A DNA stretch of 64,000 nt from assembly GCF_902459745.1 (NCBI RefSeq), contig NZ_CABPSJ010000004.1, positions 620,001 through 684,000 of the forward strand. The letters run 5' to 3'. The DNA comes from Pandoraea communis. GTDB taxonomy: Bacteria > Pseudomonadota > Gammaproteobacteria > Burkholderiales > Burkholderiaceae. Numbering within the stretch: the stretch's first letter is position 1; every line of letters starts with the position of its first letter. Both the position numbers and the translations under genes were made by a program. Positions 30,048 to 46,364 of this stretch are shown piece by piece. The notes below the pieces were generated by a model. The model made no database searches. It was not told the origin of the DNA and saw only the letters and a list, made by a program, of their open reading frames with translations.

Positions 30048-31286
30048 CTACGCGAAGTGCCCTGCGCTGAGGGCGTCGCCGCAATCGCGCACGTGGGGAA
30101 TGCTCAACTGCTTGAGCTTGCGATACAGCGATGCGCGGCAAAAGCCGAGCGTGCGTGCGGCGGCAGAAATGTTCCAGCGATGTTGTGCGAGCGCTTGCAG
30201 AATGCGCTCACGTTCACTGTCATGACGGGGCATTTGCGCAATCGTCTCGACGGTCTGGACACGCGGGGCCGATGCGACGGCATTACCGATGTCGTGTGAG
30301 CGTTGCTCCGTGAACGTATCGTTGCCGGACATCCACGTATGCGAACAAGACGTAACAAGTTCCGGCGGCAGATCGTCCGCACACAATTGATTACCGCTCA
30401 TCACCGCACATGCATAGCGTAGCGCTGCGCGCAGTTGGCGCAGATTCCCCGGCCACGCATGCATGAGCAGACGCGACAGGGCGTCTGGCGACACACGAGC
30501 CAGCACCTGATCCTCGTGTAGTTCCGGCCATTCGTCGCATAGCATGCGGGCGATCAGTTCGCGCTTGTCGTCGCGCTCGCGCAATGTGGGTAATGTGAGG
30601 ATGCCCACGGCAATGCGGTAGTAAAGGTCTTCGCGGAACGTGCCCTGTGCCACGGCGGTTGCGAGATCCTGATGGGTGGCGCAGATCAGTTGTACGTCCA
30701 CGGGCACCGCATGACTCGCACCCAGCGGCGTCACTTCGCGCTCCGAGAGCACACGCAACAGCCGCGTTTGCAGTGCGTGGGGCATGTCGCCGATTTCATC
30801 GAGGAAAAGCGTGCCGCCGTCGGCCTGCTGCAATTTTCCTTTCATGCCGCCGGGCAAGGCACCCGAGAACGCGCCGCGTTGATAACCGAACAGTTCGCTC
30901 TCGACGAGGTGCTCAGGCAGCGACGCCGTGTTGATGGCGACAAACGCCTGCGCACGCCGTTCGCTGTACTCGTGCAGCGCCCTGGCCAGAAACTCCTTGC
31001 CCGTTCCCGTCTCGCCGAGAATCAACACCGGCAGCCCGCGATCGACGAAGCGCTTGCCGCGCGCGAGCAAATCGCGCATGCGGGCGTCGGTGCCGCACAG
31101 GTCATCGATGGCGAGGTAGTCGGGGCGCATCCGGCGCGCAGCGGCGGGGGCGGCCGGCACACGGGCGATGCGCTCGGCAAGGGCTGCGATATTGGCAAAG
31201 GCGGTATTGGCGCTGGCTGTGCCGATGGGGCTGGCGTGGCCGACAGGTCGAGCGGGGGCAGGCGCTACAGCAAGGTGAGCGGGCAT
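30048..31286 (-). CDS. Sigma-54-dependent activator lacking a sensor domain (AAA+ and Fis HTH)
   Basis: A 412-residue bacterial enhancer-binding protein. AAA+ domain: Walker A GETGTGKE (91-98), sigma-54 contact loop GAFSGA (138-143, Ser for the usual Thr of GAFTGA), Walker B GGTLFLDEIGDM (158-169) and the arginine-finger area FREDLYYRI. The C-terminal Fis-type helix-turn-helix (NISAAARTLGFCRASLYRKL) lies near 385-405. Only about 60 low-complexity residues precede the AAA+ core, where AcoR-like relatives carry GAF/PAS sensors. A PspF-like mode (control by a partner) is implied. AAGGAG precedes the ATG. It diverges from the LysR gene. Confidence 0.9.
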   Translation of the reverse strand: MPAHLAVAPAPARPVGHASPIGTASANTAFANIAALAERIARVPAAPAAARRMRPDYLAIDDLCGTDARMRDLLARGKRFVDRGLPVLILGETGTGKEFLARALHEYSERRAQAFVAINTASLPEHLVESELFGYQRGAFSGALPGGMKGKLQQADGGTLFLDEIGDMPHALQTRLLRVLSEREVTPLGASHAVPVDVQLICATHQDLATAVAQGTFREDLYYRIAVGILTLPTLRERDDKRELIARMLCDEWPELHEDQVLARVSPDALSRLLMHAWPGNLRQLRAALRYACAVMSGNQLCADDLPPELVTSCSHTWMSGNDTFTEQRSHDIGNAVASAPRVQTVETIAQMPRHDSERERILQALAQHRWNISAAARTLGFCRASLYRKLKQLSIPHVRDCGDALSAGHFA

Positions 31287-31468
31287 GACTTGTCTCCTTC
31301 TCGTATTGGTACGAAAGGTCGCCGTCGGTGGCTTGTGGCCTGGCGTTCCCTGACGTCTTTTTTATGTCGCAGCCAGCTCGGGTAGCCAACCGCCAATGCA
31401 GGATACGACCACATAGTAATAACTTCCAATACAATATTGGTGCGCTATTAATACCGGTGGGGTATCAG

Positions 31469-32413
31469 ATGATCGAACTACGTCATTTCCAGTACTTCGT
31501 GGTGCTCGCGGAGACGCTGCACTTTGGCCGTGCGGCTCAGCAGTTGCATATCTCGCAGCCGCCGCTGTCGCGCCAGATTGCGCTGATGGAGGCCGAACTG
31601 GGGGTGCTGCTGTTCGAGCGCACGCGCCGCAGTGTGCGTCTCACGCGTGCGGGCGCACGTTTCTATCAGGATGCGGTGGAAATCCTGAACTCTGTCGAGC
31701 GGGCGCGTCGCAATGCCGTGGCGGCGAGCCGGGGCGAGGATGGCGCGATCACGGTGGGCTTCATGATGTCCTCGGCGTACAACATCCTGCCCGCGCTGAC
31801 GCGCACTTACGCCGCCGCGTATTCGCGGGTCGACATGAAACTGGCGGAAACGCTCCCCAACTTACTGGCCGAAGCGGTGCGTGCGGGGCAGACCGACGTG
31901 GGCATCATGTACCGCCCCGAAGACCTCACCGGGCTCGATACGGCGACAGTGTTTCGCGAGGAGATGGTGGCCGTACTGCCGCGCACGCACGCGCTCGCCA
32001 AGGCGCGCGTGCTCGACGCCTCGCAACTGGCCGAAGAGTCGTTCGTGAGCATTCCGCGCGAGATCGCGCCGCTGGTCTACGATCTGGTCGTCGATCACTG
32101 CCGTCGCGCGGGGTTTTCACCTCACATCCGGCTGGAAACCAACTTGCAGCAGACGATTATCAATCTGGTGGGGGAGGGCCTTGGCGTGGCGATGGTGCCA
32201 ATGTCGATGAGCAGCGCGAGTGCGTCAGGCAGCGCGGTCTTCAAGCCGTTGCGCAACGCGCCGGTGGCGGAGGTGGCGCTGCTTTGGAGTCGCGACAATC
32301 ACAACCCCTGTGTGGCGACGTTCGTCGAAAACGCGAGAACGGTGTGGCGTGAGATGCAGCGCGCGCCGGGCGCGCGGCTGGTGCCCGACAGACCGGACAC
32401 CGGTGTGCGATGA
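31469..32413 (+). CDS. LysR-family transcriptional regulator (CatR/BenM-like)
   Basis: A 314-residue LysR regulator. The N-terminal winged HTH (MIELRHFQYFVVLAETLHFGRAAQQLHISQPPLSRQI) is textbook; the effector domain starts at about 90 (ITVGFMMSSAYNILPALTR). The ATG at 31469 is chosen over a longer frame because the HTH begins there and GGTGGGG lies upstream. It diverges from the sigma-54 activator (182-bp gap). Relatives with this N-terminus often control aromatic-acid operons. It converges with a GntR gene across a 104-bp featureless gap. Confidence 0.92.
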   Translation: MIELRHFQYFVVLAETLHFGRAAQQLHISQPPLSRQIALMEAELGVLLFERTRRSVRLTRAGARFYQDAVEILNSVERARRNAVAASRGEDGAITVGFMMSSAYNILPALTRTYAAAYSRVDMKLAETLPNLLAEAVRAGQTDVGIMYRPEDLTGLDTATVFREEMVAVLPRTHALAKARVLDASQLAEESFVSIPREIAPLVYDLVVDHCRRAGFSPHIRLETNLQQTIINLVGEGLGVAMVPMSMSSASASGSAVFKPLRNAPVAEVALLWSRDNHNPCVATFVENARTVWREMQRAPGARLVPDRPDTGVR

Positions 32414-33240: not shown

Positions 33241-33392
33241 TTGGTCAATGCCCAGAGCAAATGTTAATTGTATATCACCTGCTTCTGGCGATAGCGGTGA
33301 CATGTCCCGGCCCTTAACACGCCCCATACCTCGGGCTTTCCCGGTATGCGCATCGCTTGTCTTGATAGTCTGATGTGCTATTATTAATCAAC

Positions 33393-33402
33393 TAATATAT
33401 TA
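33393..33402. promoter_or_regulatory. Candidate operator 1 (TAATATATTA)
   Basis: Perfect 10-bp palindrome TAATATATTA ending 24 bp before the alpha/beta hydrolase ATG. It is one of three copies of TAATATRTTA, each found just upstream of one transcription unit of this cluster. It is placed to overlap the promoter, so binding would likely repress. The presumed binder is the divergent GntR protein. Confidence 0.6.
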
Positions 33403-33426
33403 CATGGATGTGTGGGAGGAACGGCG

Positions 33427-34188
33427 ATGGACATCACGAGGGTGGGGAGGCCGGATGGTTTCCCGGTGGTTGCCTTGCACGGCATTCAGGGAACGAGCGA
33501 CTCATGGACTCCGCTTGCAACGGCGCTCGGCGATACGTTTCGTTTTATCTTGCCCAACATGCCGGGACGCGGCGACGCAGGCCCCCCGCTTTCCGCACGA
33601 GCGTGCAATGCCTGCGAGTTCGCGCGCGTCACCAGCGAGATCATCGAACAAGAGGTCGGCCATCACGCCTACGTCCTGGCCGGCTGGAGCATGGGTGTCT
33701 CCGTGATCCTCGAGTTCATGGGGCATCTGGCAGACGGCACGGCGCGGCATTCTCCGCCGGTCGCCGTTGTCCTCATGTCGGGCACCGCACAGTTGAACGA
33801 GGTGAACTGGTTTGCGTCTGCCGACGAGACTGCACTCCTCACCGAGATCAGGCAGCGCGAGGCGCGTCTGAGGCTAAAGCGGGCAGCCGACCCGCGTGTC
33901 GTGGCCTGGACCTGGAGCGCGCTAAAGCCAGTCTCGCATCTGTCGAATCTGGCTCATGTCGGCGTGCCTGCCCTCATCGTCCACGGCAGCGACGACGAAG
34001 ACTGCCCACTCGATCACGCACGTCGCATGCGCGAAGGAATCCGTCGCGCATCACTGCATGTGATTCCCGGTGGGCGTCACTCGATTCTGACGGAGAACAC
34101 CTGGGAGGTCGGCATCGCCATGCGAGATTTCCTGGCGCTGCACTGCGCGGAGCCAGGGCCACTAATCAACCAACAGGAGAATTCATGA
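33427..34188 (+). CDS. Alpha/beta hydrolase
   Basis: A 253-residue single-domain hydrolase. The oxyanion segment is LHGIQGTSDSW. The nucleophile elbow appears as AGWSMGVS (Ser near residue 88), the acid near IVHGSDDEDCP and the His in GGRHS. A GGGAGGA ribosome site sits 6 bp before ATG 33427. Its stop overlaps the dehydrogenase start (ATGA), so both are made together. No close family assignment; an ester or C-C bond hydrolase acting ahead of an alcohol dehydrogenase is plausible. Confidence 0.85.
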   Translation: MDITRVGRPDGFPVVALHGIQGTSDSWTPLATALGDTFRFILPNMPGRGDAGPPLSARACNACEFARVTSEIIEQEVGHHAYVLAGWSMGVSVILEFMGHLADGTARHSPPVAVVLMSGTAQLNEVNWFASADETALLTEIRQREARLRLKRAADPRVVAWTWSALKPVSHLSNLAHVGVPALIVHGSDDEDCPLDHARRMREGIRRASLHVIPGGRHSILTENTWEVGIAMRDFLALHCAEPGPLINQQENS

Positions 34189-35450
34189 GGATCGACGATT
34201 GCGTCCACTTTTGTGCGCCCTCCCGGCTCATCATCGAGCTGGGTTATCGCCACAAGCTCCCCAGCCTTCTTCAGGCCCTTGGCTACCGGCGCGGGCTGCT
34301 CGTCACAGACAGCTTCTTTGCCGAGAAAACACGCTGGGTGAAGGAGTACGTGACGGCGTGCGAACACCAGGGGGTGCATGTGGACGTCTATGCCGGCGGT
34401 CAGCCCGACCCGACCACGGATCTGTGCGATCGCGCGACGGACGAACTGCGTATCGCGCAGGGCGGCCAGTTGCCGGATCACATCGTCTCGCTAGGAGGCG
34501 GCAGCAACATCGATCTGGCCAAGGCGTTGTGCGTCACGCTTCCGGCGGGCCGCCCCATTCGCGACTTCGGAAGCGGCGTGGCAAGCGATGCGCCCGTCAT
34601 CGACCACATCGCTGTGCCAACGACCGCCGGCACGGGGTCGGAACTCACCCCCGGAACCATTCTGTTCGATCCGCCGACCGGCATCAAAACCGCCGTGATG
34701 GACAATCGGCTACGTCCGGTCGTCGCTGCTATCGACCCCGAACTCACATTCACATGCCCGCCCAAGGTCACGGCCGAGTCTGGCATCGACGCTTTGACCC
34801 ACGCGCTCGAATCGTTCGTCACGCTCGACTCCGATCGGTTCGATCGAAACGGCTCCTTCGACCCCGGCTACAGCGGTCGCAGCGGTCTGACCATGATCTT
34901 TGCGCGTGAGTCGATCCGGCTAGCCACCGCCTATCTACTTCGTTGTTACGAAGATGGTAACGACGTGGAGGCGCGCGTCGGTATGTGCTACGCGAGCGTC
35001 TACGCCGCAATGTCATATGGGAGCGCCGGACTCAATGCGGTTCATGGCATTGCGTATGGCGTCGCGGCGCTGACGCACAAGTCCCACGGCGCCACGAATG
35101 CGGTTGTCCTGCCATATGTCATCGATGCGTTGCGCGAGTCGCGCCACGCTGAACTCCTCGAAGTGGCCCGAATGTTCGGCATCAAGGTCGACGACGAAGT
35201 GCAGGCCGTTCGCGAGTTGCCCCACAAATTGCGCGAGCTTGTTGGCAAGCTCGGCATCCCCACTGATCTCAATGCCTTCGGCATTTCCCAGGGATCGCTG
35301 AGGGATCTGCTCATCGATTCACTTGGCGTGACTCGGTTGGCCAAAGCATTCCCGGTCGGGAATATCGAAGAGTGCTACGCGGAAATCATCGACAACGCGT
35401 GGCGTGGAGGTCTTCGAGACGAGAAGACTGAGAGACGGTCGGCAGCCTGA
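34185..35450 (+). CDS. Iron-containing alcohol dehydrogenase (group III)
   Basis: A 421-residue NAD(P)-dependent dehydrogenase. The nucleotide site is GGGSNIDLAKAL (104-115), followed by PTTAGTGSELT (145-155). The four metal ligands align: D202 and H206 (GIDALTHALE), H287 (NAVHGIAYG) and H301 (SHGATNAVVLP), with the 14-residue spacing normal for the family. AGGAG precedes the ATG, which overlaps the hydrolase stop. Maleylacetate reductase, 4-hydroxybutyrate and lactaldehyde dehydrogenases share this fold; the substrate here is not evident. Confidence 0.93.
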   Translation: MRIDDCVHFCAPSRLIIELGYRHKLPSLLQALGYRRGLLVTDSFFAEKTRWVKEYVTACEHQGVHVDVYAGGQPDPTTDLCDRATDELRIAQGGQLPDHIVSLGGGSNIDLAKALCVTLPAGRPIRDFGSGVASDAPVIDHIAVPTTAGTGSELTPGTILFDPPTGIKTAVMDNRLRPVVAAIDPELTFTCPPKVTAESGIDALTHALESFVTLDSDRFDRNGSFDPGYSGRSGLTMIFARESIRLATAYLLRCYEDGNDVEARVGMCYASVYAAMSYGSAGLNAVHGIAYGVAALTHKSHGATNAVVLPYVIDALRESRHAELLEVARMFGIKVDDEVQAVRELPHKLRELVGKLGIPTDLNAFGISQGSLRDLLIDSLGVTRLAKAFPVGNIEECYAEIIDNAWRGGLRDEKTERRSAA

Positions 35451-35546
35451 TCAACGCGATTCCCATCGATTCGACAGGTCGCTGTCGCCGCGCAAAGACA
35501 CAATTCACCATTCGGCCGGACACACCGGTCGCTTTGCGTCTCAATG

Positions 35547-35560
35547 TCTAATATGTTAGA
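35547..35560. promoter_or_regulatory. Candidate operator 2 (TCTAATATGTTAGA)
   Basis: A 14-bp palindrome with 5-bp perfect arms TCTAA/TTAGA around TATG, containing the TAATATGTTA core. It ends 36 bp before the MFS transporter ATG. Second copy of the cluster motif. The rest of the 146-bp gap holds only an AAAGGAG ribosome site. Confidence 0.6.
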
Positions 35561-35596
35561 TGAATATCAGAAAAATGTAACAAAGGAGACACAAGC

Positions 35597-36979
35597 ATGG
35601 ATATGTCCGCAGCCGCGTCGCGGCTAGGTGTTGACGTCGTCGCGCGTCTTGAGCGACTACCGATGACGAACTATCAACGAACGCTTTTCTCTATCATCGC
35701 CACCGCCTGGTTCTTCGATTCCATGGATCTCGGGTTGATGACGTTCGTTCTCGGTTCGATCAAGGCGGAGTTCGGCCTTTCCGCCTCGCAGGCCGGACTG
35801 CTCGCCAGTTCCAGCTTTCTCGGCATGTTCGTGGGTGCCGCCACCGCGGGGCTTCTTGCGGACAAGTTCGGGCGCAAGCCGGTCTTTCAGGTCAGCATGG
35901 TCTTCTGGGGGGCCGGCAGCCTGATGTGCGGCTTTGCTCACAATGTCGAGTCGCTGATGATGTACCGCGTTCTGCTCGGCTTCGGCATGGGCATGGAGTT
36001 CCCGATCGGTCTCTCGATGGTTTCAGAGATCGTTCCGGCCAGAAGTCGCGGCAAGTATGTGGCCATCCTCGAAGGTTTCTGGCCCATCGGCTTCATCGCG
36101 GCTGGCGCGTTTTCCTACTTCATGCTCCCGGTGATCGGGTGGCGCGGCATCTTCATCGCGTTGGCGATCCCGGCCGTTTTCGTGTTCGTCATCAGGCGAA
36201 TGGTGCCCGAATCGCCTCGTTGGCTGGAAGACACTGGGCGCATGAAAGAAGCGGCGGACGTGATGAACCACATCGAAGCCAAAGTGGAGACGGCCTACGG
36301 CCGCAGGTTGCCGGAACCCGTCATCGTGCCGGGCGTGCGGCACCAGCAGACCGGCCGGAAGGCGCTCTTTTCGGAGATTTGGCGCGGCGTGTATGCGAAG
36401 CGAACGGTCATGTTGTGGACCACCTGGTTCTTCGCGCTGCTGGGCTACTACGGGCTGACAACATGGTTGGGGGCGTTGCTGCAGCAGGCCGGATACGAGA
36501 TCACCAAATCCGTGCTCTACACCGTCTATATCTCGCTGGCAGGCATCCCCGGCTTCCTTTTCTCAGCCTGGTTGCTGGAGAAATGGGGACGCAAGCCGAC
36601 CTGCGCATTGATGCTGCTTGGCAGTGCGCTCGCCGCCTATCTATACGGTCAGGCGGCAGGCAACAAGGCGCCGATTGAGCAGTTGATTGCCACAGGGCTA
36701 CTGATGCAGTTCTTTCTCTTCGGCATGTGGTCTGTGCTGTACGCCTACACACCGGAACTTTACCCGACCCGCATCCGTGCAACGGGCTCGGGTTTTGCCT
36801 CCTCCATCGGACGCGTCGGCTCTCTCGCCGGCCCTTTCGCCATTGGTGTGCTGCTCCCGACCTGGGGACAAACGGGCGTGTTCACCATGGGGGCTCTGTC
36901 CTTCGTGATTGCCGCGCTGGCCGTACTGTTGCTTGGCGTCGAGACGAAGGGCCGTTCGCTGGAGGACGTTTCGCACTGA
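35597..36979 (+). CDS. MFS transporter (sugar/aromatic-acid porter type)
   Basis: A 460-residue, twelve-segment major facilitator. The loop 2-3 motif GLLADKFGRKP is present. PESPRWLEDTGRMKEAADVM follows TM6, as in the sugar-porter and aromatic-acid:H+ symporter families, and ELYPTRIRATGSGFASSIGRVGSLAGP lies in the second half. AAAGGAG precedes the ATG. It is flanked by the dehydrogenase (+) and hydroxylase (+) under the same candidate operators, so it likely imports the cluster substrate. Confidence 0.92.
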   Translation: MDMSAAASRLGVDVVARLERLPMTNYQRTLFSIIATAWFFDSMDLGLMTFVLGSIKAEFGLSASQAGLLASSSFLGMFVGAATAGLLADKFGRKPVFQVSMVFWGAGSLMCGFAHNVESLMMYRVLLGFGMGMEFPIGLSMVSEIVPARSRGKYVAILEGFWPIGFIAAGAFSYFMLPVIGWRGIFIALAIPAVFVFVIRRMVPESPRWLEDTGRMKEAADVMNHIEAKVETAYGRRLPEPVIVPGVRHQQTGRKALFSEIWRGVYAKRTVMLWTTWFFALLGYYGLTTWLGALLQQAGYEITKSVLYTVYISLAGIPGFLFSAWLLEKWGRKPTCALMLLGSALAAYLYGQAAGNKAPIEQLIATGLLMQFFLFGMWSVLYAYTPELYPTRIRATGSGFASSIGRVGSLAGPFAIGVLLPTWGQTGVFTMGALSFVIAALAVLLLGVETKGRSLEDVSH

Positions 36980-37017
36980 CCCGTTGCAAGAGATTTACCC
37001 GTTCTTGACCCGGCGGG

Positions 37018-37057
37018 GCGCGGTCCCCGCCGCGCGGAACTGCGGCGGGGACCGCGC
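37018..37057. terminator. 16-bp perfect GC hairpin after the MFS gene
   Basis: Arms 37018-37033 and 37042-37057 are perfectly complementary over 16 bp, loop GCGGAACT. Neither side has a T-run, so it is not a classical terminator. It may stop transcription with Rho or stabilise the MFS mRNA 3' end. Confidence 0.45.
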
Positions 37058-37189
37058 CTGACGCCAGTGGGGCCGGTCGGATGCACCTTCTCCGGCACCA
37101 ACGGCACGAACGTCCATCCCGAATCATTTCATCGCTTCCACTTCACAAAACAGTGAACGCCATTCCGATGATTCTTGTTTTTGCACAAC

Positions 37190-37199
37190 TAATATGTTA
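37190..37199. promoter_or_regulatory. Candidate operator 3 (TAATATGTTA)
   Basis: Third copy of TAATATRTTA, ending 47 bp before the hydroxylase ATG; the core is identical to that at 35549-35558. The following ATTGT continues an 11-bp identity (ATGTTAATTGT) with the GntR gene upstream region. Confidence 0.6.
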
Positions 37200-37246
37200 A
37201 TTGTTTATTTTGCAATTCGCGTTGATTCAGACACAGGAGACAAGTC

Positions 37247-38056
37247 ATGATTACAGAGCGTCAGTTGAAGTTCAGGGAACAATACAAGTCCGACATAAGC
37301 CCGATGTACAACGGCATGCTGCATATCATCGTGATGTATGTCGTGGCGATTGGCGCGGTATGGTATGCCGTCAGCCGTTTGCAGAATCCGACTTGGGAAT
37401 GGTTCCTGATCGTTCCGGTTTTTCTGGCGGGCAACTTCGTCGAGTGGTTCATGCATCGATTCGTCATGCACCGTCGGGTGGATGTGTGGGGCCTGCGCGA
37501 GATCTACAACCGGCATACACGCCAGCATCATCAGTACTTCACCGACCAGTTGTCGACGATCGACACGACGCGTGAGTTCCGGATCGTGTTCTTCCCATGG
37601 CGTGTGCTGATGACGCTTGGTATTGGCGGCGGGGTCATCGGTTATGCGACTTCATGGATACTGAACGCCAACGCTGGCTGGATGGTGTTCCTGACCATGG
37701 TCGGTCAGTACGTCATTTATGAAACCTTCCACTACTGTTGCCACTGTCACGAGAACTGGTTCGTGCGCTACATGCCGTTCATCAACACCATTCGGCGCCA
37801 TCACACCGCCCACCACAACATGGGCATCATGATGAAATACAACATGAATCTGACGTTTCCGATTGCCGACTGGTATATGGGAAGCAGCGATTTGCGTCGG
37901 GGCCTGATTGGCCATCTCTTCAATGGCTACAGCGAAAAGCATATCAAGAGCGAGTTGAAGCCGATCATTGCAAAGTTCAAGGACGATCACTCGCAAGTCA
38001 CGCTGGACGGCCCGATCCTCACCGACGAGGAACGCAGGGCAATGACGGCCCTCTGA
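37247..38056 (+). CDS. Membrane di-iron hydroxylase (fatty-acid hydroxylase/sterol desaturase superfamily)
   Basis: A 269-residue integral membrane enzyme with four hydrophobic segments (about 22-42, 46-64, 115-135, 143-160). The histidine clusters of the superfamily are present: EWFMHRFVMHR (HxxxxH), RHTRQHHQYF (HxxxHH), YETFHYCCHCHE and RRHHTAHHN (HHxxHH). These should bind a di-iron centre for O2-dependent hydroxylation. AGGAG precedes the ATG. The pairing with a hydrolase, alcohol dehydrogenase and importer suggests hydroxylation followed by oxidation of an imported compound; the substrate is unknown. Confidence 0.9.
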   Translation: MITERQLKFREQYKSDISPMYNGMLHIIVMYVVAIGAVWYAVSRLQNPTWEWFLIVPVFLAGNFVEWFMHRFVMHRRVDVWGLREIYNRHTRQHHQYFTDQLSTIDTTREFRIVFFPWRVLMTLGIGGGVIGYATSWILNANAGWMVFLTMVGQYVIYETFHYCCHCHENWFVRYMPFINTIRRHHTAHHNMGIMMKYNMNLTFPIADWYMGSSDLRRGLIGHLFNGYSEKHIKSELKPIIAKFKDDHSQVTLDGPILTDEERRAMTAL

Positions 38057-38165: not shown

Positions 38166-38921
38166 TCAGATCTCCAGAATCCCGGCTGCCACAAAGCCGC
38201 CGTCGACCGGCAGGATGTGACCTGTCACGTAAGACGCGTCGTCCGATGCCAGAAAGCTCACCGCGCCAGCGATCTCACTGGGCTGCCCGTAGCGGCCGAG
38301 GGGCGTCGTCTCCGTATAGTGGCGGCGTGAGACGTCGGAGTGCAGCACCTGCGTGAGCGGCGTGTCGATGGGGCCGGGGGCGACGCCGTTGGCGGTAATG
38401 CCGAAGGGCGCGAGTTCAATGGCCATCTGGCGCGTGAGGCCGATGACGGCGGCTTTCGACGTTCCGTAGGCCGTGCGTCCTGCGCTGGCCAGAATGCCCG
38501 CCACGGACGCCAGATTGATGATCCGTCCCCAGCGCTGTTCGCGCATGAGTCGCGCGGCGTGCTGCCCGCACAGCAGCGTGCCCGTGAGGTTCACGTTCAT
38601 CACCTGATGCCAGTGATCGAGTGGATAGTCGAGAAACGGGAATGTCTTGGCGATCCCCGCGTTGTTCACGAGCACATCGCAACGCCCATACCGTTGCGCG
38701 ATCTGTGCGAAGCCATCGGCAATCGATGCGGCGTCGCCCACATTCATCCCCAGCGCCCACGCCTTGCCACCCGCCGCGTTCAGCTTCGCCGCCGTCTCAC
38801 CTGCCGCGCCTTCGTTCAGATCGGCGACAACGACCGTCATGCCGTCATTCACCAACCGCTCGCAGATAGCGGCGCCGATACCCATGCCGCCGCCCGTGAC
38901 AACTGCTACTTTCTCCGTCAT
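38166..38921 (-). CDS. SDR-family oxidoreductase
   Basis: A 251-residue classical SDR with a complete active site: cofactor loop TGGGMGIGAAI (about 8-18), NNAGIAK, the catalytic Ser in NLASVAG, and Tyr/Lys in YGTSKAAVIGL. C-terminal YVTGHILPVDGGFVA. AGGAG precedes the ATG. Last gene of a minus-strand unit behind the TRAP transporter (102-bp gap holding a large hairpin), so it probably oxidises or reduces the transported compound. Confidence 0.9.
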   Translation of the reverse strand: MTEKVAVVTGGGMGIGAAICERLVNDGMTVVVADLNEGAAGETAAKLNAAGGKAWALGMNVGDAASIADGFAQIAQRYGRCDVLVNNAGIAKTFPFLDYPLDHWHQVMNVNLTGTLLCGQHAARLMREQRWGRIINLASVAGILASAGRTAYGTSKAAVIGLTRQMAIELAPFGITANGVAPGPIDTPLTQVLHSDVSRRHYTETTPLGRYGQPSEIAGAVSFLASDDASYVTGHILPVDGGFVAAGILEI

Positions 38922-39023: not shown

Positions 39024-40901
39024 TTACTTCAGAAAGCCGATCGAGATCCAGGGGATGAAGACCACGATAAGCAGTGCGATGAGCAGCGCGCCCATGTAGG
39101 TCCACATCCGGTTGAACACCTTGTCCGGCGACGTCTTGCCGATGGCGCACGCGGCGTAGAAACCGACGCCGAGCGGCGGTGCGAACAGGCCCATGCCCAT
39201 CGACAGGATCACGACCATCGCGTAGTGCACATCGTGAATGCCCAGCGAGCGGGCGACCGGAAAGAGCAGCGGCCCGAACAGCACGATGGCCGGAATGCCT
39301 TCCAGCACGCTGCCCAGCACGATGAACACGACCATCGAGATGAGCAGGAAGCCGATCTGTCCGCCCGGCACCCCATGCATCAGCCCGACGAGCTTGGCGG
39401 AGAAGCCCGACTGCGTGAGCGCCCAGGCCATGGCGGTGGCCATGCCGATGATGAGCAGGATGGCGCCGGAAAGTGCTGCCGTTTCCGTGAGCAGCGGATA
39501 CAGGCGCTTGAAGTTCAGGTGCTTCTTGAAGGCATGGACGAGCAGGCCGATCACGATCGTGTAGGCGATACCGATCGTGGACACTTCCGTTGCCGTAGCG
39601 GCGCCTTCGATGACGGCCGTGCGGATCAGAATCGGCAGAGCGAGTGCCGGCAACGCCACGATGAACGTCTTGCCGATCACGCTCCACGGCGCGCGGCGCG
39701 CCGCACTGGGAGCCTCTTTGCGCGAGCGCGTGAAGCACACCACGACGATGGCCAGCGTGGCGATGACGGCAGGCAGCAGGCCGCCAACAAAGAGCGCCGT
39801 GATGGACACACCGCACACCGCACCGATGGTGATGAGCACGAGGCTGGGCGGAATCGTCTCCGTCATGGCGCCGGTCGACGAGAGCAGTGCGACGAGGTCT
39901 TCCGGTTTCGATCCGCGCCGCTGCATTTCGGGGAAGAGGGCTGGCGCCACGGCTGCCATGTCGGCAGCCTTCGACCCGGAAATACCTGAGACCAGGAACA
40001 TCGCACCGAGCAGCACGTATTGCAGGCCGCCGCGCACATGGCCGAGCAGCGAGGCCATGAATTCGATCAGGCTGCGAGCAAGCCCGCTCATCTCGATCAG
40101 CGCGCCGAGCAGCACGAACAGCGGCACCGACAGCAGGATGAGGCCCGACATGCCCTCGTCCATGCGACTGACGACAATCTGAAGCGGCGCGTCGGTCACG
40201 AGTGCCAGATAGGCCAGCGTTGCCGTGCCGAAGGCAAAGGCGATCGGAATACCGCCTGCCACGCATGCACCGACGATCAGTACGAAGAACACCAGCAGGT
40301 TGTAGTTGCCCATCGCGATGAGTGCGGGGCGGCCGAGCCAGAGTGCGGTGCCGAGCGCGGCAACGACCAACACGCCAAGACCGAACTGGCGCAGGGTCGA
40401 GCACCGCGCCATGCGCGAGATGGCCGCGACGAGCATCAGCGCTGCGCCGACCGGCAGCGCGGCGGCGCGCAACCCGTCGGGGATTTCGAGCGCGGGCGTG
40501 GTGATGTCCATCTGTTCGATGGCATGCGTGTACGCGGGCATGATGATGAGCGCGACGAACACGCAGACCGTGAGCGCAGCCATGGTCTGGAACCAGTCGC
40601 GCCATGCCGCCGGGAGTTTGTTGACGATGGCGGACAGGCGCATGTGTTCGCCCCGGTCGAGCGCCAGAACCGCACCGAGCATCGATAGCCAGATGAACAG
40701 GATCTGCGCCAGTTCGTCAGACCAGGTGATCGGATTGTCGAACCCGTAACGCGAGATCACGCCCGCGAGCAGGATGAGAGTTTCCGCCACCACCAGCAGC
40801 ACGGCAGCCGCTTCGGTGACTTTCATCACCGCGCGGTTGACGTGGCAGAAGAGGCGGGCGAGCGCGTGCGTCGGCTCGGCCGTCATCGTCAACGTTTCCA
40901 T
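39024..40901 (-). CDS. TRAP transporter, fused DctQ-DctM permease
   Basis: A 625-residue membrane protein fusing both TRAP permease subunits. Residues 1 to about 165 form a DctQ-like four-helix domain (ETLILLAGVISRYGFDNPITWSDELAQILFIWLSM), and about 200-625 the DctM domain (MLVFFVLIVGACV, GISGSKAADMAAVAPALFPEM, SSTGAMTETIPPSLVLITIG). It powers uptake of an organic acid by the Na+ gradient, with the binding protein encoded immediately upstream: the dctP stop codon is directly adjacent to this ATG. Fused QM proteins are a known arrangement. Confidence 0.93.
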   Translation of the reverse strand: METLTMTAEPTHALARLFCHVNRAVMKVTEAAAVLLVVAETLILLAGVISRYGFDNPITWSDELAQILFIWLSMLGAVLALDRGEHMRLSAIVNKLPAAWRDWFQTMAALTVCVFVALIIMPAYTHAIEQMDITTPALEIPDGLRAAALPVGAALMLVAAISRMARCSTLRQFGLGVLVVAALGTALWLGRPALIAMGNYNLLVFFVLIVGACVAGGIPIAFAFGTATLAYLALVTDAPLQIVVSRMDEGMSGLILLSVPLFVLLGALIEMSGLARSLIEFMASLLGHVRGGLQYVLLGAMFLVSGISGSKAADMAAVAPALFPEMQRRGSKPEDLVALLSSTGAMTETIPPSLVLITIGAVCGVSITALFVGGLLPAVIATLAIVVVCFTRSRKEAPSAARRAPWSVIGKTFIVALPALALPILIRTAVIEGAATATEVSTIGIAYTIVIGLLVHAFKKHLNFKRLYPLLTETAALSGAILLIIGMATAMAWALTQSGFSAKLVGLMHGVPGGQIGFLLISMVVFIVLGSVLEGIPAIVLFGPLLFPVARSLGIHDVHYAMVVILSMGMGLFAPPLGVGFYAACAIGKTSPDKVFNRMWTYMGALLIALLIVVFIPWISIGFLK

Positions 40902-41921
40902 TTACGCGAGCTTCCCGGTGTACTTTTCCAACGTGGTCCACGCTTCGTCACCAAACTTCTTGTGCCATTCGGCATAGAAGCCGGCGGCGCGAAGCTTCTC
41001 GCGGAATTGCTCGTTGTTCGGTGCGTTGAACACGAGACCCTTCTGCTTGAGTTCGGCCATGACGCCGTCGTTGAGCTTGCGCACGTCGTCGCGTTGCGCC
41101 ATCGCTGCGGCGTTCACGTTGGCGGTGACGATCGCCTGCAAGTCCTTGGGCAGCTTGTCCCATTTCTGCTTGTTGGCGAGGAACCAGAAGCCGTCCCACA
41201 TGTGGTTCGTCATCGACACGTACTTCTGCACTTCATACAGCTTGGCCGTGGTCAGCAGCGCGAGCGGATTCTCCTGCGCTTCAACGATGTGCGTCTGCAA
41301 GGCCGAATACACTTCGGCGAAGTTGATCGACGTCGGCGACGAGTCGAAGGCACGGAACATCGACGTCCATAGCGGGCTCGTCGGCACGCGGATCTTCAGG
41401 CCCTTGAGGTCGGCCGGCGAGTTGATCGGGCGGCTGCTCGTGGTGATCTGGCGGTAACCGTTTTCCCAGATCTTGTCGAAGGCGAACACCGATGTCTTGG
41501 CGATCTGGCCGCGCACGTGCGCCCCGAGGTCGCCGTCCATCGCCGCCCACACCTGACCGTAATCCTTGAACGCGAAGCCCACGCCCGAAATCTGCGCCGA
41601 GGGCACCAGCGTGCCGAGAATCAGCGGCGAGAGCGTGAAGTAATCGATGGCGCCCGAACGGATCTGGCTCAGCATGTCGCTATCGGTGCCGAGCTGGTTG
41701 TTCGGGTAAATCTGGAAGTCGATACGGCCCTTCGATTGCTCTGCGATTTTCTGCGCCATCTCTTTGGCGCGAATGTTCATCGGATGGCTGATGGGCAGGT
41801 TGTTGGCGAACTTCAGCGTGAATTCTGCGGCGCGGGCCTGCGTCTGATACAACCCCGTGGCGGCAGCGGCCGAAGTGGCGGCCACAACCTTGATGAAGTG
41901 GCGGCGGTCCATATTGCTCAT
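40902..41921 (-). CDS. TRAP transporter substrate-binding protein (DctP family)
   Basis: A 339-residue periplasmic binding protein. The N-terminus has a twin-arginine-type signal (DRRHFIK then a hydrophobic Ala-rich core to ARAAEF), suggesting Tat export. The mature protein opens with TLKFANNLPISHPMNIRAKEMAQKIAEQSKGRIDFQIYPNNQLGTD, typical of DctP. The carboxylate-binding Arg region is PTSPLWTSMFRAFDSSPTSINFAEVYSALQT. Start at 41921 with GGAG. First gene of the operon driven by the minus-strand sigma-54 promoter at 42054-42069. Confidence 0.93.
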   Translation of the reverse strand: MSNMDRRHFIKVVAATSAAAATGLYQTQARAAEFTLKFANNLPISHPMNIRAKEMAQKIAEQSKGRIDFQIYPNNQLGTDSDMLSQIRSGAIDYFTLSPLILGTLVPSAQISGVGFAFKDYGQVWAAMDGDLGAHVRGQIAKTSVFAFDKIWENGYRQITTSSRPINSPADLKGLKIRVPTSPLWTSMFRAFDSSPTSINFAEVYSALQTHIVEAQENPLALLTTAKLYEVQKYVSMTNHMWDGFWFLANKQKWDKLPKDLQAIVTANVNAAAMAQRDDVRKLNDGVMAELKQKGLVFNAPNNEQFREKLRAAGFYAEWHKKFGDEAWTTLEKYTGKLA

Positions 41922-42053
41922 ACTGCATGTCTCCTGATTATTGGTTTGGTGACTGCGTCTGATGCGCGAGGCGTGCTGTCGTGTTGCCATGCAATGCCCC
42001 GGCCAACTCCTAATGCAAGCGTGAAGCGACTCGCAAGTGGCTTGGCTATCTTA

Positions 42054-42069
42054 CGCAAGTCGAATGCCA
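42054..42069 (-). promoter_or_regulatory. Sigma-54 (-24/-12) promoter for the TRAP operon
   Basis: On the minus strand TGGCATTCGACTTGCG: the invariant GG and GC are separated by exactly 10 nt, and TGGCA and TTGC match the consensus (TGGCACG-N4-TTGCA). Transcription would begin near 42043, giving a leader of about 120 nt to dctP. Confidence 0.75.
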
Positions 42070-42246
42070 GATCGCAGTCCGGGCGGGAAAACCCTTATCT
42101 TGTTAAGCACTCATGAAGTCCCGCGTCTGTCGGGTTGCCTCGCTGCGCTTCCTTTTATCTGGCGGAACCCGCCGTGGCGGTACGTCGGCGCCGCGAGCGC
42201 CGTTTGCTGCATCTGCGAGCGGAGTCCGATCGGCACCCGGATGCGG

Positions 42247-42326
42247 TGCGACACCTGTCGCATTTGGCGCCCGCCTTGCGACACCTGTCGCATGTGATCG
42301 ACGACAGCGATGCGACAGGTGTCGCA
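42247..42326. promoter_or_regulatory. Three enhancer-like palindromes (TGCGACA-N2-TGTCGCA)
   Basis: Copies at 42247-42262 and 42277-42292 are identical (centre CC); the third, 42311-42326, has centre GG, i.e. the same site inverted. All have perfect 7-bp arms. Starts are 30 and 34 bp apart, near three helical turns. They lie about 180-260 bp from the minus sigma-54 promoter and about 200-300 bp from the plus one, the normal distance for enhancer-binding-protein sites. The rest of the 663-bp gap (41922-42584) shows no gene. Confidence 0.75.
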
Positions 42327-42528
42327 TGCCGCCGTGCCCGGCCGGTTGTGTTGCAGCACAGCAAATACATTTCGTTTGGTGTGCATCCGAATTCACTTGA
42401 TGCCGTAGTGGATGCGGCTTTACGCTTACGTCAATTGCGAAAGCGCCACAAGCGCGAGCATCGCAATCGAGCTGCAATGCGCCGTGGATGCCGTTAGCGC
42501 GTCATCGGCGTGGGGAGGTGCCCATGTC

Positions 42529-42544
42529 TGGCATCGAAATTGCT
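42529..42544 (+). promoter_or_regulatory. Sigma-54 (-24/-12) promoter for the thiolase operon
   Basis: TGGCATCGAAATTGCT: GG-N10-GC spacing is exact, and TGGCA and TTGCT match consensus. The predicted start near 42555 leaves a leader of about 30 nt containing the GGAGA ribosome site for the thiolase ATG at 42585. Confidence 0.78.
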
Positions 42545-42584
42545 CACCGGAGTCTGGATGACCCCATTTTTCCGGAGACACTTC

Positions 42585-43751
42585 ATGGTTGCTGCATGCC
42601 TTACCGGCTGGGCCCACTCCCAGTTCGGAAAACTCGACAACGTCGATGCCGAAGTCTTGCTGGCCGACGTCGCACAAGCTGCGCTCGACGACGCGGGCCT
42701 TGCGCCCGAACAGATCGATTCCATTCACGTCGGCACTTTCAATGGCGGTTTCCTGTATCAGGACTTTCCGTCGTCGCTCGTTTTCAACCGAATTCCCGGC
42801 CTGCGCTTCAAACCGGCCACGCGCTACGAGAATGCGTGCGCGACGGGGTCGGCCGCCGTGTATGGCGGACTGCAATCCATCGAAGCGGGCAAAGCCACGC
42901 ACGTGCTCGTGATCGGCTTCGAGAAGATGACCGAGCTGGCGACGCCGCAGGTCGGCGAGGTGTTGCTCAAATGTTCCTACGCACGCGAAGAGGCCGACAT
43001 TCCGGGCGGTTTTGCGGGCGTGTTCGGCACCATTGCACAAGCGTACTTCGACCGCTATGGCGACCAGTCCGACGCCCTCGCACGCATTGCGGCGAAGAAC
43101 CATCGCAACGGTTCGGTCAATCCCTACGCACACATGCGTCGGGACTTCGGTTACGACTTCTGCCGCAATGTCTCCGAGAAGAATCCGTTTGTGGCCGGGC
43201 CGCTCAAGCGTACCGATTGCTCGATGGTGTCGGACGGAGCTGCCGCGCTCGTGATCTCGTCTGCCGACGTGGCGCGCACGATGCCCAAGGCCGTCGGCTT
43301 TCGCGCGGCGGTGCAGGTCAACGACTACTTGCCGCTCTCGCGTCGTGACCCGCTGGCGTTTGAAGGCGGACAGCACGCCTGGCGTCAGGCACTGGGCGTT
43401 GCCGGCGTCTCGCTCAAAGACCTGTCGCTGGTCGAGACACATGACTGTTTCACCATCGCCGAACTCATCGAGTACGAGGCGATGGGGCTCGCCAAGCCGG
43501 GGCAGGGTGCAAACGTGGTGGCCGAGGGGTTGACCGAAAAGAACGGTCTGCTGCCGGTCAATCCGTCGGGCGGGTTGAAGGCAAAGGGGCACCCGGTCGG
43601 GGCGACAGGCGTCTCCATGCACGTCATGGCCGCCATGCAACTGACAGGGTCTGCGGGTGAGATGCAGATCCCGAACGCGAAGCTCGCGGGCGTTTTCAAC
43701 ATGGGCGGGGCGGCAGTGGCGAACTACGTGAGCATTCTCGAAGCGCGCTGA
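42585..43751 (+). CDS. Thiolase-family protein (SCP2/SCPx-like acetyl-CoA acetyltransferase)
   Basis: A 388-residue thiolase. The nucleophile Cys85 lies in YENACATGSAAVYGG. The SCP2-thiolase signature HDCF is at 286-289 and the catalytic His336 in GGLKAKGHPVGATG. The C-terminal Cys block of degradative thiolases (CxGGG) is replaced by NMGGAAVANY, as in SCP2-like members. Start at MVAACLTGW with GGAGA 7 bp upstream; the longer frame to 42510 would begin upstream of the mapped promoter and is rejected. First gene of a four-gene operon; likely cleaves a branched or cyclic beta-ketoacyl-CoA. Confidence 0.9.
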   Translation: MVAACLTGWAHSQFGKLDNVDAEVLLADVAQAALDDAGLAPEQIDSIHVGTFNGGFLYQDFPSSLVFNRIPGLRFKPATRYENACATGSAAVYGGLQSIEAGKATHVLVIGFEKMTELATPQVGEVLLKCSYAREEADIPGGFAGVFGTIAQAYFDRYGDQSDALARIAAKNHRNGSVNPYAHMRRDFGYDFCRNVSEKNPFVAGPLKRTDCSMVSDGAAALVISSADVARTMPKAVGFRAAVQVNDYLPLSRRDPLAFEGGQHAWRQALGVAGVSLKDLSLVETHDCFTIAELIEYEAMGLAKPGQGANVVAEGLTEKNGLLPVNPSGGLKAKGHPVGATGVSMHVMAAMQLTGSAGEMQIPNAKLAGVFNMGGAAVANYVSILEAR

Positions 43752-43843: not shown

Positions 43844-45421
43844 ATGCTCAAGAAGGTCATGAATCTCGGCCGGCTGCTGGCCGACGTTGCCCGGCGTCAT
43901 CCTGACGAACCCGGCGTGATCATCGGTGAGAAGGTCAGCACGTGGGGCGAGATCGACGCCCGCGTGAACGCCGCCGTCGATGCCTTGCGCAAGCTGGGTG
44001 TGCGCCGTGGCGACAAGCTGCTGGTGCATTCGCGCAACAACTTGCCCATCTTCGAGAGCGCGTGGATCGCCTTTCGGCTGGGCGCGGTCTGGGTGCCGAC
44101 GAACTTCCGTATCACCCCACCGGAAGCCGCATATCTGGGGCAATCGAGCGGCGCCTGCGTGATGATCTACGACGCGGGCTTCGAGGGGCATGTCGACGCT
44201 GTGCGTGCCGCCTCGCCGGCGTTGCGCCATGTCATTGCGCTGGGCGCGCCGCGCGCGGGTGAGATGCACTACGAGACACTGGTGGCCGAACACCTCGGCG
44301 CCCCCGGCTATGAAGCGGAAGTCGAGTACGAAGACCCGTTGTGGTTCTTCTACACATCGGGCACGACCGGCCATCCGAAGGCGGGTGTGCTCTCGCATGG
44401 GCAGATGGCTTTCGTCGTCACCAATCATTTGGCCGATCTGATGCCCGGCATCACTTACCGCAGCCGCTCGATGGTGGTGGCGCCGCTCTCGCACGGGGCG
44501 GGCATTCACGCCATCGTGAATACGGCACGCGGGGCGGCCAGCGTGCTGCTGCCGGGCGAGAAGATGGACGCGGAGCAGGTCTGGCAGGCCATCGAGCGTT
44601 ATCGCGTCGACAACATGTTCACGGTGCCGACCATCGTCAAGATGCTGGTCGAAGACCCGGCGGTGGATCGCTACGACCATAGCTCGTTGCGCTTTGTGAT
44701 CTATGCCGGGGCGCCGATGTATCGCGCGGATCAGAAATACGCGCTGCAAAAGCTGGGCCGAGTGCTGGTGCAGTACTACGGTCTGGGCGAGGTGACGGGC
44801 AACATCACGGTACTGCCGCCGTGGCTGCACAGCGACGACGACAACGCGCCCGACGCGCGCATCGGCACTTGCGGTGTGCCGCGCACAGGCATGGAGGTGG
44901 CGATTCTCGACGAGCATGGCGAGCGTCAGCCACCGTTCGCCTCAGGCGAGATCTGTGTGCGCGGGCCGGCGGTCTTCATGGGGTATCACAACAATCCGGA
45001 CGCGAACGCCAAGGCGTTCAAGGACGACTGGTTCCACACTGGCGATCTCGGGCATGTGGATGCGCAGGGTTTCCTGTACATCACGGGACGCGCCTCGGAC
45101 ATGTACATCTCGGGGGGCTCGAACGTCTACCCGCGCGAGATCGAGGAAGCGTTGCTCACGCACCCGGCCGTGTCGGAGTGCGCGGTGCTTGGCGTGCCCG
45201 ACCCCAAGTGGGGCGAGAGCGGGCTCGCAGTGGTGGTCGCACGGGAGGGCATGGCAGCTCAGGCCGATGAACTGCTCGGACATCTCGAAGCGCGCATTGC
45301 CCGCTACAAGTGGCCGCGTCGCTTCATTTTCTGGAATGCCATGCCCAAGTCGGGCTACGGCAAGATCGTGAAGAAGCAAATCAAGACGATGCTCGAAGAG
45401 CAAGGAGACTATCGACTATGA
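43844..45421 (+). CDS. Acyl-CoA synthetase (AMP-forming)
   Basis: A 525-residue ANL-superfamily enzyme that activates a carboxylic acid to its CoA thioester via acyl-AMP. P-loop YTSGTTGHPKA (170-180), then YGLGEVTGNI, the hinge region HTGDLGHVDAQGFLYITGRASDMYISGGSNVYPREIEE, and the catalytic Lys in SGYGKIVKKQ near the end. AGAGGAGAC precedes the ATG. The stop overlaps the next ATG (ATGA). It probably acts before the thiolase: ligase, then chain modification, then cleavage. Confidence 0.93.
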   Translation: MLKKVMNLGRLLADVARRHPDEPGVIIGEKVSTWGEIDARVNAAVDALRKLGVRRGDKLLVHSRNNLPIFESAWIAFRLGAVWVPTNFRITPPEAAYLGQSSGACVMIYDAGFEGHVDAVRAASPALRHVIALGAPRAGEMHYETLVAEHLGAPGYEAEVEYEDPLWFFYTSGTTGHPKAGVLSHGQMAFVVTNHLADLMPGITYRSRSMVVAPLSHGAGIHAIVNTARGAASVLLPGEKMDAEQVWQAIERYRVDNMFTVPTIVKMLVEDPAVDRYDHSSLRFVIYAGAPMYRADQKYALQKLGRVLVQYYGLGEVTGNITVLPPWLHSDDDNAPDARIGTCGVPRTGMEVAILDEHGERQPPFASGEICVRGPAVFMGYHNNPDANAKAFKDDWFHTGDLGHVDAQGFLYITGRASDMYISGGSNVYPREIEEALLTHPAVSECAVLGVPDPKWGESGLAVVVAREGMAAQADELLGHLEARIARYKWPRRFIFWNAMPKSGYGKIVKKQIKTMLEEQGDYRL

Positions 45422-45954
45422 AACCTGCGCTTTCACGGATCTATCGGCATGCAGGCGCCCCCACGTTACCCCGTGTGGAAGACTGCGTGTTGAGCGGGCA
45501 GCACGAACTGCGCGTGACGATCCGGTCTGGTGCGAATCTCGGAGAGGCCTTACGCGCGGCGTTATCCCGCTATGCGTATGGCGGCGGCGTCGGCCGCTTC
45601 TGCGCGGGCACCGCGCGAGGTCTGCGGTATCACATGATAGAGAACACCGCTGACACGGAGCGCCCCTTCGGCTATGGGGCGCCGGTCGACGAAACCCGGG
45701 AGGTGGATCTGATCGGCGGTGCGATCACGGTCGGCCGTACGGCCGACGGTGCCACGCTGTTGCATTGCCATGCGGGGTTTTCCGACCCGTGTGGCGAATT
45801 GCATGGCGGTCATCTGATTCTCGATCACACCTGGGCCGGAGACGAGCCTGTGGTGATTCGCCTGTGTCTGTTCGAGCACGGCGGCTACGTGACCGCCGAT
45901 GACGACGAGACGCGCTTTCACCTGCTCCATCCCGTCGCCGGAGGCCTCTCATGA
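45418..45954 (+). CDS. PPC/DUF296-domain protein A
   Basis: A 178-residue protein with a PPC (DUF296)-like domain. The conserved metal-type histidines are visible as LLHCHAGFSD followed by ELHGGHLILDH (about residues 118-142). The N-terminal region (residues 1-100) includes ELRVTIRSGANLGEAL. It is coupled by ATGA overlaps to both the ligase before it and protein B after it. PPC domains in plants are DNA-associated; bacterial versions are small trimeric proteins of unknown role. An auxiliary or regulatory part in this CoA pathway is inferred only from the operon. Confidence 0.78.
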   Translation: MKPALSRIYRHAGAPTLPRVEDCVLSGQHELRVTIRSGANLGEALRAALSRYAYGGGVGRFCAGTARGLRYHMIENTADTERPFGYGAPVDETREVDLIGGAITVGRTADGATLLHCHAGFSDPCGELHGGHLILDHTWAGDEPVVIRLCLFEHGGYVTADDDETRFHLLHPVAGGLS

Positions 45955-46364
45955 GTACAGCGCTGGATGTTCCGGTGGCCATCGAGAACGGCACGCTGGG
46001 CAGGTTGGTCGTGGCACGTCTCAAACCGAATCAGGACCTGACGGAGAGCATCGAGGCGCTGTGCGCGGAGCATGGCATCTCGCGGGCCATCGTGCGCGGC
46101 GCGGTGGGGAGTCTGATTGACGCACGTCTGGCATTTCGCGCGGGTGACGGCTGGCGTGAGCAACTGGTGAGCGGCCCCGGCGTGGAAATCCTCAATGTGT
46201 TCGGCGAGGTGGATGTCCGGCCCGATGCCGCGCACACGCTGCCCATGCTGCACGGCATGGTGGCGGACACGGAGGGACGCATGTTCGCAGGACGCTTCGT
46301 GCGTGGCGGCAATCTGTCGTTCATCACGATCGAAGTGACGTTGCAGGAGTGGTTGCCCGCGTAG
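45951..46364 (+). CDS. PPC/DUF296-domain protein B
   Basis: A 137-residue PPC-domain protein: VVARLKPNQDLTESIEALCAEHGISRAIVRGAVGSLIDARLAF is the usual N-terminal half. In the second half the HxH and GGHL residues of protein A are reduced to MLHGMVAD and FAGRFVRGGN, so the putative metal site is incomplete. The ATG overlaps the stop of protein A. Tandem complete and degenerate paralogues suggest a hetero-oligomer. Confidence 0.8.
   Translation: MSTALDVPVAIENGTLGRLVVARLKPNQDLTESIEALCAEHGISRAIVRGAVGSLIDARLAFRAGDGWREQLVSGPGVEILNVFGEVDVRPDAAHTLPMLHGMVADTEGRMFAGRFVRGGNLSFITIEVTLQEWLPA

Follow-up and report, generated by a model that had tools for sequence, protein, structure and literature searches.

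The gap that separates dctP (minus strand) from the thiolase gene (plus strand) in Pandoraea communis carries two opposed sigma-54 promoters and, between them, a 16-base palindrome, TGCGACA-N2-TGTCGCA, in three exact copies. It comprises 663 bases, positions 41922-42584 of the window, by which we mean the entire 64,000-nucleotide stretch of DNA that was analysed. We propose, with a probability of roughly 0.78, that the palindromes form a shared enhancer through which a single sensor-less activator encoded in the window, designated EBP-A, would drive both operons, while a divergent LysR-type regulator would set the amount of EBP-A and a LiuR-type operator would provide a second check. Direct observations comprise the sequence elements, their degree of conservation and the co-occurrence of the sites with a single class of activator.

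The divergent gap and its conservation in Pandoraea

The genes of the two operons and the elements of the gap are as follows.

38166..38921, minus strand: SDR oxidoreductase, end of the TRAP operon
39024..40901, minus strand: single-frame TRAP permease comprising the small and large parts
40902..41921, minus strand: dctP, solute-binding protein of the TRAP system (start assigned by eye)
41990..42005, minus strand: second, less conserved -24/-12 candidate towards dctP, TGGCCGGGGCATTGCA (matrix score; gap alignment)
42054..42069, minus strand: -24/-12 element towards dctP (TRAP operon), TGGCATTCGACTTGCG (GG-N10-GC; scored; conserved)
42085..42109, no strand assigned: strongly conserved block upstream of the dctP promoter, GGGAAAACCCTTATCTTGTTAAGCA
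42247..42262, plus strand: putative enhancer palindrome 1, TGCGACACCTGTCGCA (exact match; conserved in the same-genus alignment)
42277..42292, plus strand: putative enhancer palindrome 2, TGCGACACCTGTCGCA (exact match; conserved in the same-genus alignment)
42311..42326, minus strand: putative enhancer palindrome 3, the same 16-mer in opposite orientation (exact match; conserved)
42419..42434, no strand assigned: LiuR-type operator between the palindromes and the thiolase promoter, TTTACGCTTACGTCAA (exact match to a 16-base consensus)
42529..42544, plus strand: -24/-12 element towards the thiolase operon, TGGCATCGAAATTGCT (GG-N10-GC; scored; conserved)
42585..43751, plus strand: thiolase (NF005704, PRK07516 type)
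43844..45421, plus strand: acyl-CoA ligase (NF005676)
45418..45954, plus strand: PPC/PCC-domain protein 1 (weak match, below the Pfam cut-off)
45951..46364, plus strand: PPC/PCC-domain protein 2

The thiolase resembles SCP2- and BbsB-type enzymes, and for the substrate of the pathway the family models and solved structures yielded general names only. An adjacent pair of PPC/PCC-domain genes accompanies the thiolase and ligase genes in many loci.

Sigma-54 promoters follow a TGGCAC-N5-TTGCW-like consensus with the core GG-N10-GC. Both opposed elements that had been predicted are present with this exact spacing, and both were kept in all 30 gaps recovered from the genus. With a matrix derived from this consensus, the plus element tied for the top score of the window and the minus element ranked fourth; the top scores of three shuffled 64-kb windows were equally high (14.3-15.5). 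When the bases of the gap were shuffled 1000 times, two shuffles attained the plus score, 8 the minus score and none both. Conservation is a stronger test of these promoters than the matrix score. The second candidate towards dctP (42005-41990) scored 12.3, almost equal to the main dctP element in the window, and it outscored that element in 4 of the 30 same-genus gaps; its conservation in the 30-gap alignment was 0.77, compared to 0.92 for the main element. Scanning positions 41850-42650 revealed no sigma-70-like promoter or terminator. IHF sites between the enhancer and the promoters were considered and rejected: positions 41901-42600 contain one match to the IHF consensus, with two mismatches, and it is located at 41922, outside the relevant stretches. 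The genome encodes a single sigma-54, as judged by one PF04552 match (E 7.6e-67).

The three palindromes lie exactly where they had been described, at 42247, 42277 and 42311, with start-to-start spacings of 30 and 34. Their supposed near-helical phasing holds only in part, the spacings amounting to 2.86 and 3.24 turns and the distance of the outer pair to 6.1 turns. A scan of the whole 5.7-Mb genome, suggested in the original prediction, returned only four exact copies, namely the three in the gap and one at C8:216457, while the reversed control returned none. When the centre was set to S-S and up to two mismatches were allowed, 20 matches were obtained, of which 4 were exact and 16 had two mismatches, none having one; the reversed control gave 9. 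The four exact palindromes therefore stand apart, and the genome scan for one-mismatch palindromes gave no further genomic targets. The palindrome centres are located ~210-300 bp from the predicted transcript starts (near 42043 and 42555). This exceeds the enhancer distance of 100-150 bp quoted in the available part of a review (PMC7057263) and counts against the shared-enhancer model.

Conservation was examined in 32 Pandoraea genomes, including that of the window, 28 of which contain the exact palindrome. The divergent dctP/thiolase gap was recovered from 30 of them as 30 distinct sequences; the remaining two genomes (one of 1.2 Mb, one 89% complete) gave no thiolase match at 1e-40. Every recovered gap contains both promoters and at least one palindrome with no more than one mismatch, the match being exact in 28/30; G003 and G028 have no exact copy but keep one-mismatch sites. 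The original prediction had named loss of the palindromes from relatives that keep both operons as evidence against it, and such loss was not seen in any of the 30 genomes. The strong thiolase-directed element is placed 50-58 bases before the start in 30/30 gaps, with the palindromes between the two elements. Counting sites with up to two mismatches, 26 gaps have three palindromes, one has two and three have one, at spacings of 30 (23 times), 34 (15), 33 (11), 31 (3) and 22 (1). The centre is also constrained, as CC or GG was found in 51 of the 54 exact sites in these gaps. In the 30-row alignment, mean identity to the window was 0.65 over the gap as a whole but reached 0.92 and 0.98 in the promoters and 0.91-0.95 in the palindromes, which places the five elements at 94-99.7% in the ranking of all 16-mers. 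Beyond the TRAP/thiolase and EBP-B loci, the genus contains two other exact palindromes, both treated as chance matches: one (L048, G001:C6) lies inside an open frame with no module genes, and the other (L065, G020:C1:5363580) likewise has no module genes.

Two further elements of the gap were analysed. The putative operator TTTACGCTTACGTCAA, ~100 bases upstream of the thiolase -24 element, matches a 16-base TTKACG-type palindrome consensus that we take to be that of LiuR. The genome contains five matches to this consensus: three (two of them overlapping) at C1:629.5-630.2 kb, where they surround a MerR gene, a fourth at C1:658884, close to an HMG-CoA lyase gene, and the window site. Since the reversed control gave three matches against these five, the count itself is weak. 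The MerR gene is followed by genes for an acyl-CoA dehydrogenase, AceK- and carbonic anhydrase-like frames (assigned by eye), a thiolase, a carboxyltransferase and an enoyl-CoA hydratase. We named this cluster liu on the basis of its gene order, the family matches except that of the thiolase being below the NCBIfam cut-offs. The site is exact in 24/30 Pandoraea gaps and within one mismatch in 26/30; among 26 gaps of other loci it was found exactly in four and with one mismatch in four more, all from Herbaspirillum. To our knowledge, a thiolase operon of this kind does not belong to the standard liu set. The conserved block at 42085-42109 is unique in the genome at up to two mismatches; no known motif was recognised in it and no function was found.

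The activator EBP-A, its paralogue and the LysR-type regulator

EBP-A is encoded ~11 kb from the palindromes; its gene and the neighbouring features are as follows.

30048..31286, minus strand: EBP-A, sensor-less sigma-54 activator (AAA+, Fis-type HTH, GAFSGA loop; Pfam), the proposed activator
31426..31440, no strand assigned: second dyad of the EBP-A/LysR gap, CCAATACAATATTGG
31451..31465, no strand assigned: LysR-type box ATACC-N5-GGTAT (T-N11-A) of the EBP-A/LysR gap
31469..32413, plus strand: LysR-type regulator, oriented divergently to EBP-A (AlsR is the best NCBIfam model, with a match below the cut-off)

EBP-A matches PF00158 (Sigma54_activat) and HTH_8 above the cut-offs, and its Pfam domains are limited to AAA+ with the lid and the Fis-type HTH. 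An N-terminal regulatory domain was not found: 63 residues precede the Sigma54_activat match, with no Pfam domain among them. Its loop, GAFSGA, is a GAFTGA-type variant listed among those that keep activation (PMC4641369, as far as available). The protein is 95% identical in P. horticolens. In 29 of the 30 genus genomes EBP-A is encoded on the contig of the palindromes, ~5-11 kb from them, and in G005 on another contig. A single activator for uptake and CoA-dependent breakdown, as originally proposed, is the best reading for this genome and genus, in which both promoters and at least one palindrome are kept in 30/30 gaps. That proposal had missed the activator gene itself, the LysR tier, a paralogous second region, the CC/GG centre and the LiuR-type operator.

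The genome encodes ten full Sigma54_activat matches and five weak or partial ones. Eight of the ten were compared (L007 and L012 were left out), and among these EBP-A and a second protein, EBP-B, are mutual best matches (53-55% identity) with similar recognition helices; they also have the fewest residues of open frame ahead of Walker A (108-115 versus at least 164). A divergent sigma-54 region on contig C8 of the same genome (L020:5579-8946), beside EBP-B and LysR-B, holds the fourth palindrome and the PPTase and aldo/keto reductase (AKR) genes, with an A-T-reductase (NRPS-like) gene at L020:11963-15568. The palindrome, 1.35 kb from EBP-B, is flanked by TGGCACTTAAATTGCT towards the PPTase gene and TGGTTCGAAACTTGCA towards the AKR gene. 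In all 18 distinct gaps of relatives, a strong element faces PPTase and the conserved TGG(T/A)TCGAAA(C/A)TTGCA faces AKR; the palindrome is exact in 16 of them, the best match having one mismatch in L106 and two in L103. The fourth palindrome thus also resides in a divergent sigma-54 region beside its own activator/LysR pair.

These similarities raise the alternative that EBP-B, or both paralogues as mixed hexamers, acts on both regions as one joint regulon. The 16-bp site is the same in both, the two proteins are alike in sequence and recognition helix, two Paraburkholderia-type loci (L185 and L186) carry the genes of both modules around one activator, and HrpR and HrpS, which form hetero-hexamers, offer a precedent (PMC7057263, available part). 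However, at least nine members of the genus (G008, G010, G012, G016, G019, G023, G025, G028 and G030) have EBP-A without a second match resembling EBP-B, their next activator matches being 42-52% identical, and nevertheless keep the TRAP/thiolase sites. EBP-B is therefore unneeded for maintenance of the sites in these genomes, and we consider a joint regulon unlikely.

Target regions of LysR-type regulators obey a T-N11-A dyad rule, which the box ATACC-N5-GGTAT fits. This box was found exactly in 39/71 and with at most one mismatch in 51/71 activator/LysR gaps (70 loci plus the window; L165 is without a LysR match); ATAG-N7-CTAT takes its place in 13 of the 15 Pseudomonas-type gaps. In the controls, i.e. 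the target gaps and one permuted pattern, 2-4 mismatches were observed. Autoregulation of EBP-A through its own palindrome was rejected: the most similar sequence in the EBP-A/LysR gap differs from it at 6 positions in the window and, among the 18 gaps listed, at 4 or more. For an activator without a sensor, LysR control of its amount would follow naturally, and from the arrangement of genes and sites we infer a cascade in which LysR would act on the activator and the activator on the sigma-54 promoters.

Between the LysR gene and the TRAP operon (32518-38056) the window contains genes for a GntR protein, an alpha/beta hydrolase, an iron-type alcohol dehydrogenase, an MFS protein and a fatty-acid-hydroxylase-like protein (all assigned by eye). 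These five genes are also present there in P. horticolens (L132), while in L134-L149 the SDR gene directly adjoins LysR.

Distribution of the palindromes beyond the genus

When named genomes were scanned with an alignment of the activator, 103 relatives were found, of which the best 80 were evaluated; many of these come from the same genomes as the genus set and are hence not independent of it. Among these 80, 71 loci (L132-L202) belong to the EBP-A class: 56 that include TRAP, thiolase or PPC genes, 13 EBP-B loci of Pandoraea in which the A-T-reductase is present, and two (L133, L169) that are cut short. The other nine activators (L203-L211) are without the module except for one weak ligase match (L208). 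The class loci contain 59 exact palindromes in 45 loci, 74 in 48 loci at up to one mismatch, and 88 in 52 loci at up to two, whereas the reversed control gave 0, 0 and 6; the loci without a site are explained in part by sequences ending before the promoter region. No palindrome was found in the nine other loci, a small sample (114 kb versus 1.36 Mb). The palindromes thus track one activator class. A quick tree separated the class from the nine other activators (support 88) and placed the Pandoraea EBP-B next to four Paraburkholderia-type activators (support 99); it served for the broad split alone, since its branches are too long for closer relationships to be read safely.

The pair of opposed elements was also observed in gaps of Herbaspirillum, Duganella, Glaciimonas, Paraburkholderia/Burkholderia and Pseudomonas. 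The dctP/thiolase gaps of Herbaspirillum, Duganella and Paraburkholderia contain exact palindromes, and that of Glaciimonas contains one with two mismatches. In the 15 Pseudomonas-type loci (L187, L188, L190-L202) the full palindrome has decayed, and a shortened core, GACACCTGT, is present in 15/15, with 29 copies in total and none inside the matched module genes, which cover 48% of the bases. As a control, 300 permuted words gave a mean of 2.6 copies in 2.1 loci, the largest value being 38 copies in 15 loci. In loci where the PPC pair is an operon of its own next to LysR, all 10 gaps examined have a -24/-12 element ahead of it (scores 11.0-18.0), accompanied by the 8-base enhancer core in nine and, in the tenth (L160), by an exact palindrome with a GT centre.

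The shared layout thus often recurs outside Pandoraea, but not everywhere. Four loci in which the TRAP and thiolase genes follow the activator co-directionally (L168, L175, L177, L131) showed no above-threshold -24/-12 element or core between the activator and dctP; most simply, their transcription would continue from the activator gene. L129, with opposed dctP and thiolase genes and a 1.3-kb gap, has neither element nor core there and a palindrome only before the PPC pair, and the dctP/thiolase gap of Chitinasiproducens (L160) has a perfect palindrome with no convincing promoter on either side. The enhancer therefore travels with particular operons, and sigma-54 control of the TRAP/thiolase genes is not universal. 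In L185 and L186 the A-T-reductase, AKR, TRAP, thiolase and ligase genes and the PPC pair are grouped around one activator/LysR pair, with no match to PPTase; this hints at one ancestral pathway.

The distribution also bears on the possibility that the palindromes are operators of some other dimeric regulator, e.g. a repressor, the sigma-54 promoters being driven by an unrelated activator that binds elsewhere. A compact 16-bp palindrome would suit such a protein, the GntR-like gene (32518-33327, by eye) and the LysR gene are close by, and another strongly conserved block adjoins the dctP promoter. The sites, however, recur with the EBP-A class in both Beta- and Gammaproteobacteria, and beside EBP-B as well; the GntR gene was matched in just one of the 71 loci (L132; some loci end early), and the box of the LysR proteins is unlike the palindrome and located in another gap. 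We regard such an operator function as quite improbable. A further suggestion, prompted by three near-identical copies within 80 bp, is that the palindromes represent a small repeat, mobile or structural (REP-like or hairpin), that plays no part in activation. It can be dismissed almost entirely in view of the mere four exact copies in 5.7 Mb, the same places kept across genera and, by reasoning, a 2-base loop too short for a good hairpin.

Proposed circuit and comparison with known systems

Joint sigma-54 control of the TRAP/SDR and thiolase/ligase/PPC operons is well supported by conservation. In the shared-enhancer model, EBP-A is predicted to bind the TGCGACA-SS-TGTCGCA palindromes and, once bound, would loop to closed complexes at both -24/-12 elements, so that the TRAP/SDR operon on the left and the thiolase/ligase/PPC operon on the right would be switched on together. 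As EBP-A has no sensor domain, the signal would enter one step earlier, through the divergent LysR-type regulator, which is expected to control the amount of EBP-A at ATACC-N5-GGTAT. The LiuR-type operator, on the enhancer side of the thiolase promoter, may add an acyl-CoA-linked check on the breakdown operon. Binding and looping, the operon structure, the direction of the LysR and LiuR effects and the inducer are what we infer from the sequence.

A broader idea, which we put forward only tentatively, is that of a portable three-layer circuit, leading from a LysR sensor to a sensor-less activator and on to opposed operons, with an acyl-CoA-linked LiuR repressor, placed between the enhancer and one promoter, blocking breakdown only, that would also run the A-T-reductase/AKR/PPTase pathway in Pandoraea. 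If this were true, uptake and breakdown would have a common on-switch and separate brakes. For an activator class distributed from Burkholderiales to Pseudomonas, the analysis provides a probable binding site, target operons and an upstream regulator, and it ties an uncharacterised TRAP/thiolase/ligase/PPC pathway to one putative regulon. The loci also constitute a naturally repeated test case for LysR control of a sensor-less activator and for one enhancer serving two opposed promoters.

Searches of the open-licence literature for the motif, the recurring pair of a sensor-less activator and LysR, sigma-54 in Pandoraea and the gene set brought up no account of the system described here. An insect-symbiosis region for which a sigma-54 regulator is named (PMC9088363, available part) was rejected as a counterpart, because it comprises a different set of 40 genes absent from Pandoraea. 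The closest known systems each share some of the features described above. GcsR of Pseudomonas aeruginosa is likewise a sigma-54 activator, whose three tandem sites with palindromic arms are located upstream of the putative RpoN promoter of a catabolic operon; it differs in its ACT/PAS regulatory domain and its TGTAACG-N4-CGTTCCG sites (PMC4894688, available part), whereas the window encodes a sensor-less activator and has its sites between two opposed operons. PspF and HrpR/HrpS resemble EBP-A in having the central AAA+ domain and no N-terminal sensor, but are checked by the partner proteins PspA and HrpV, respectively (PMC7057263, available part), while here the divergent LysR gene and its box suggest control of the activator level. 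In Desulfovibrio vulgaris, the divergent type III secretion operons, for which a common motif is predicted, and the divergent orp operons each offer a parallel in which one activator serves two opposed sigma-54 operons from a common upstream region; the site and the genes are different, and the part of the source that was available describes no LysR tier (PMC4641369). Finally, the MerR-family protein LiuR governs a regulon of branched-chain amino acid use (PMC5343134, available part), and the window site, at which LiuR binding is predicted, resembles those of the MerR/acyl-CoA cluster of this genome. The parts of the proposed circuit are of known kinds, and it is their recurring combination that looks new.
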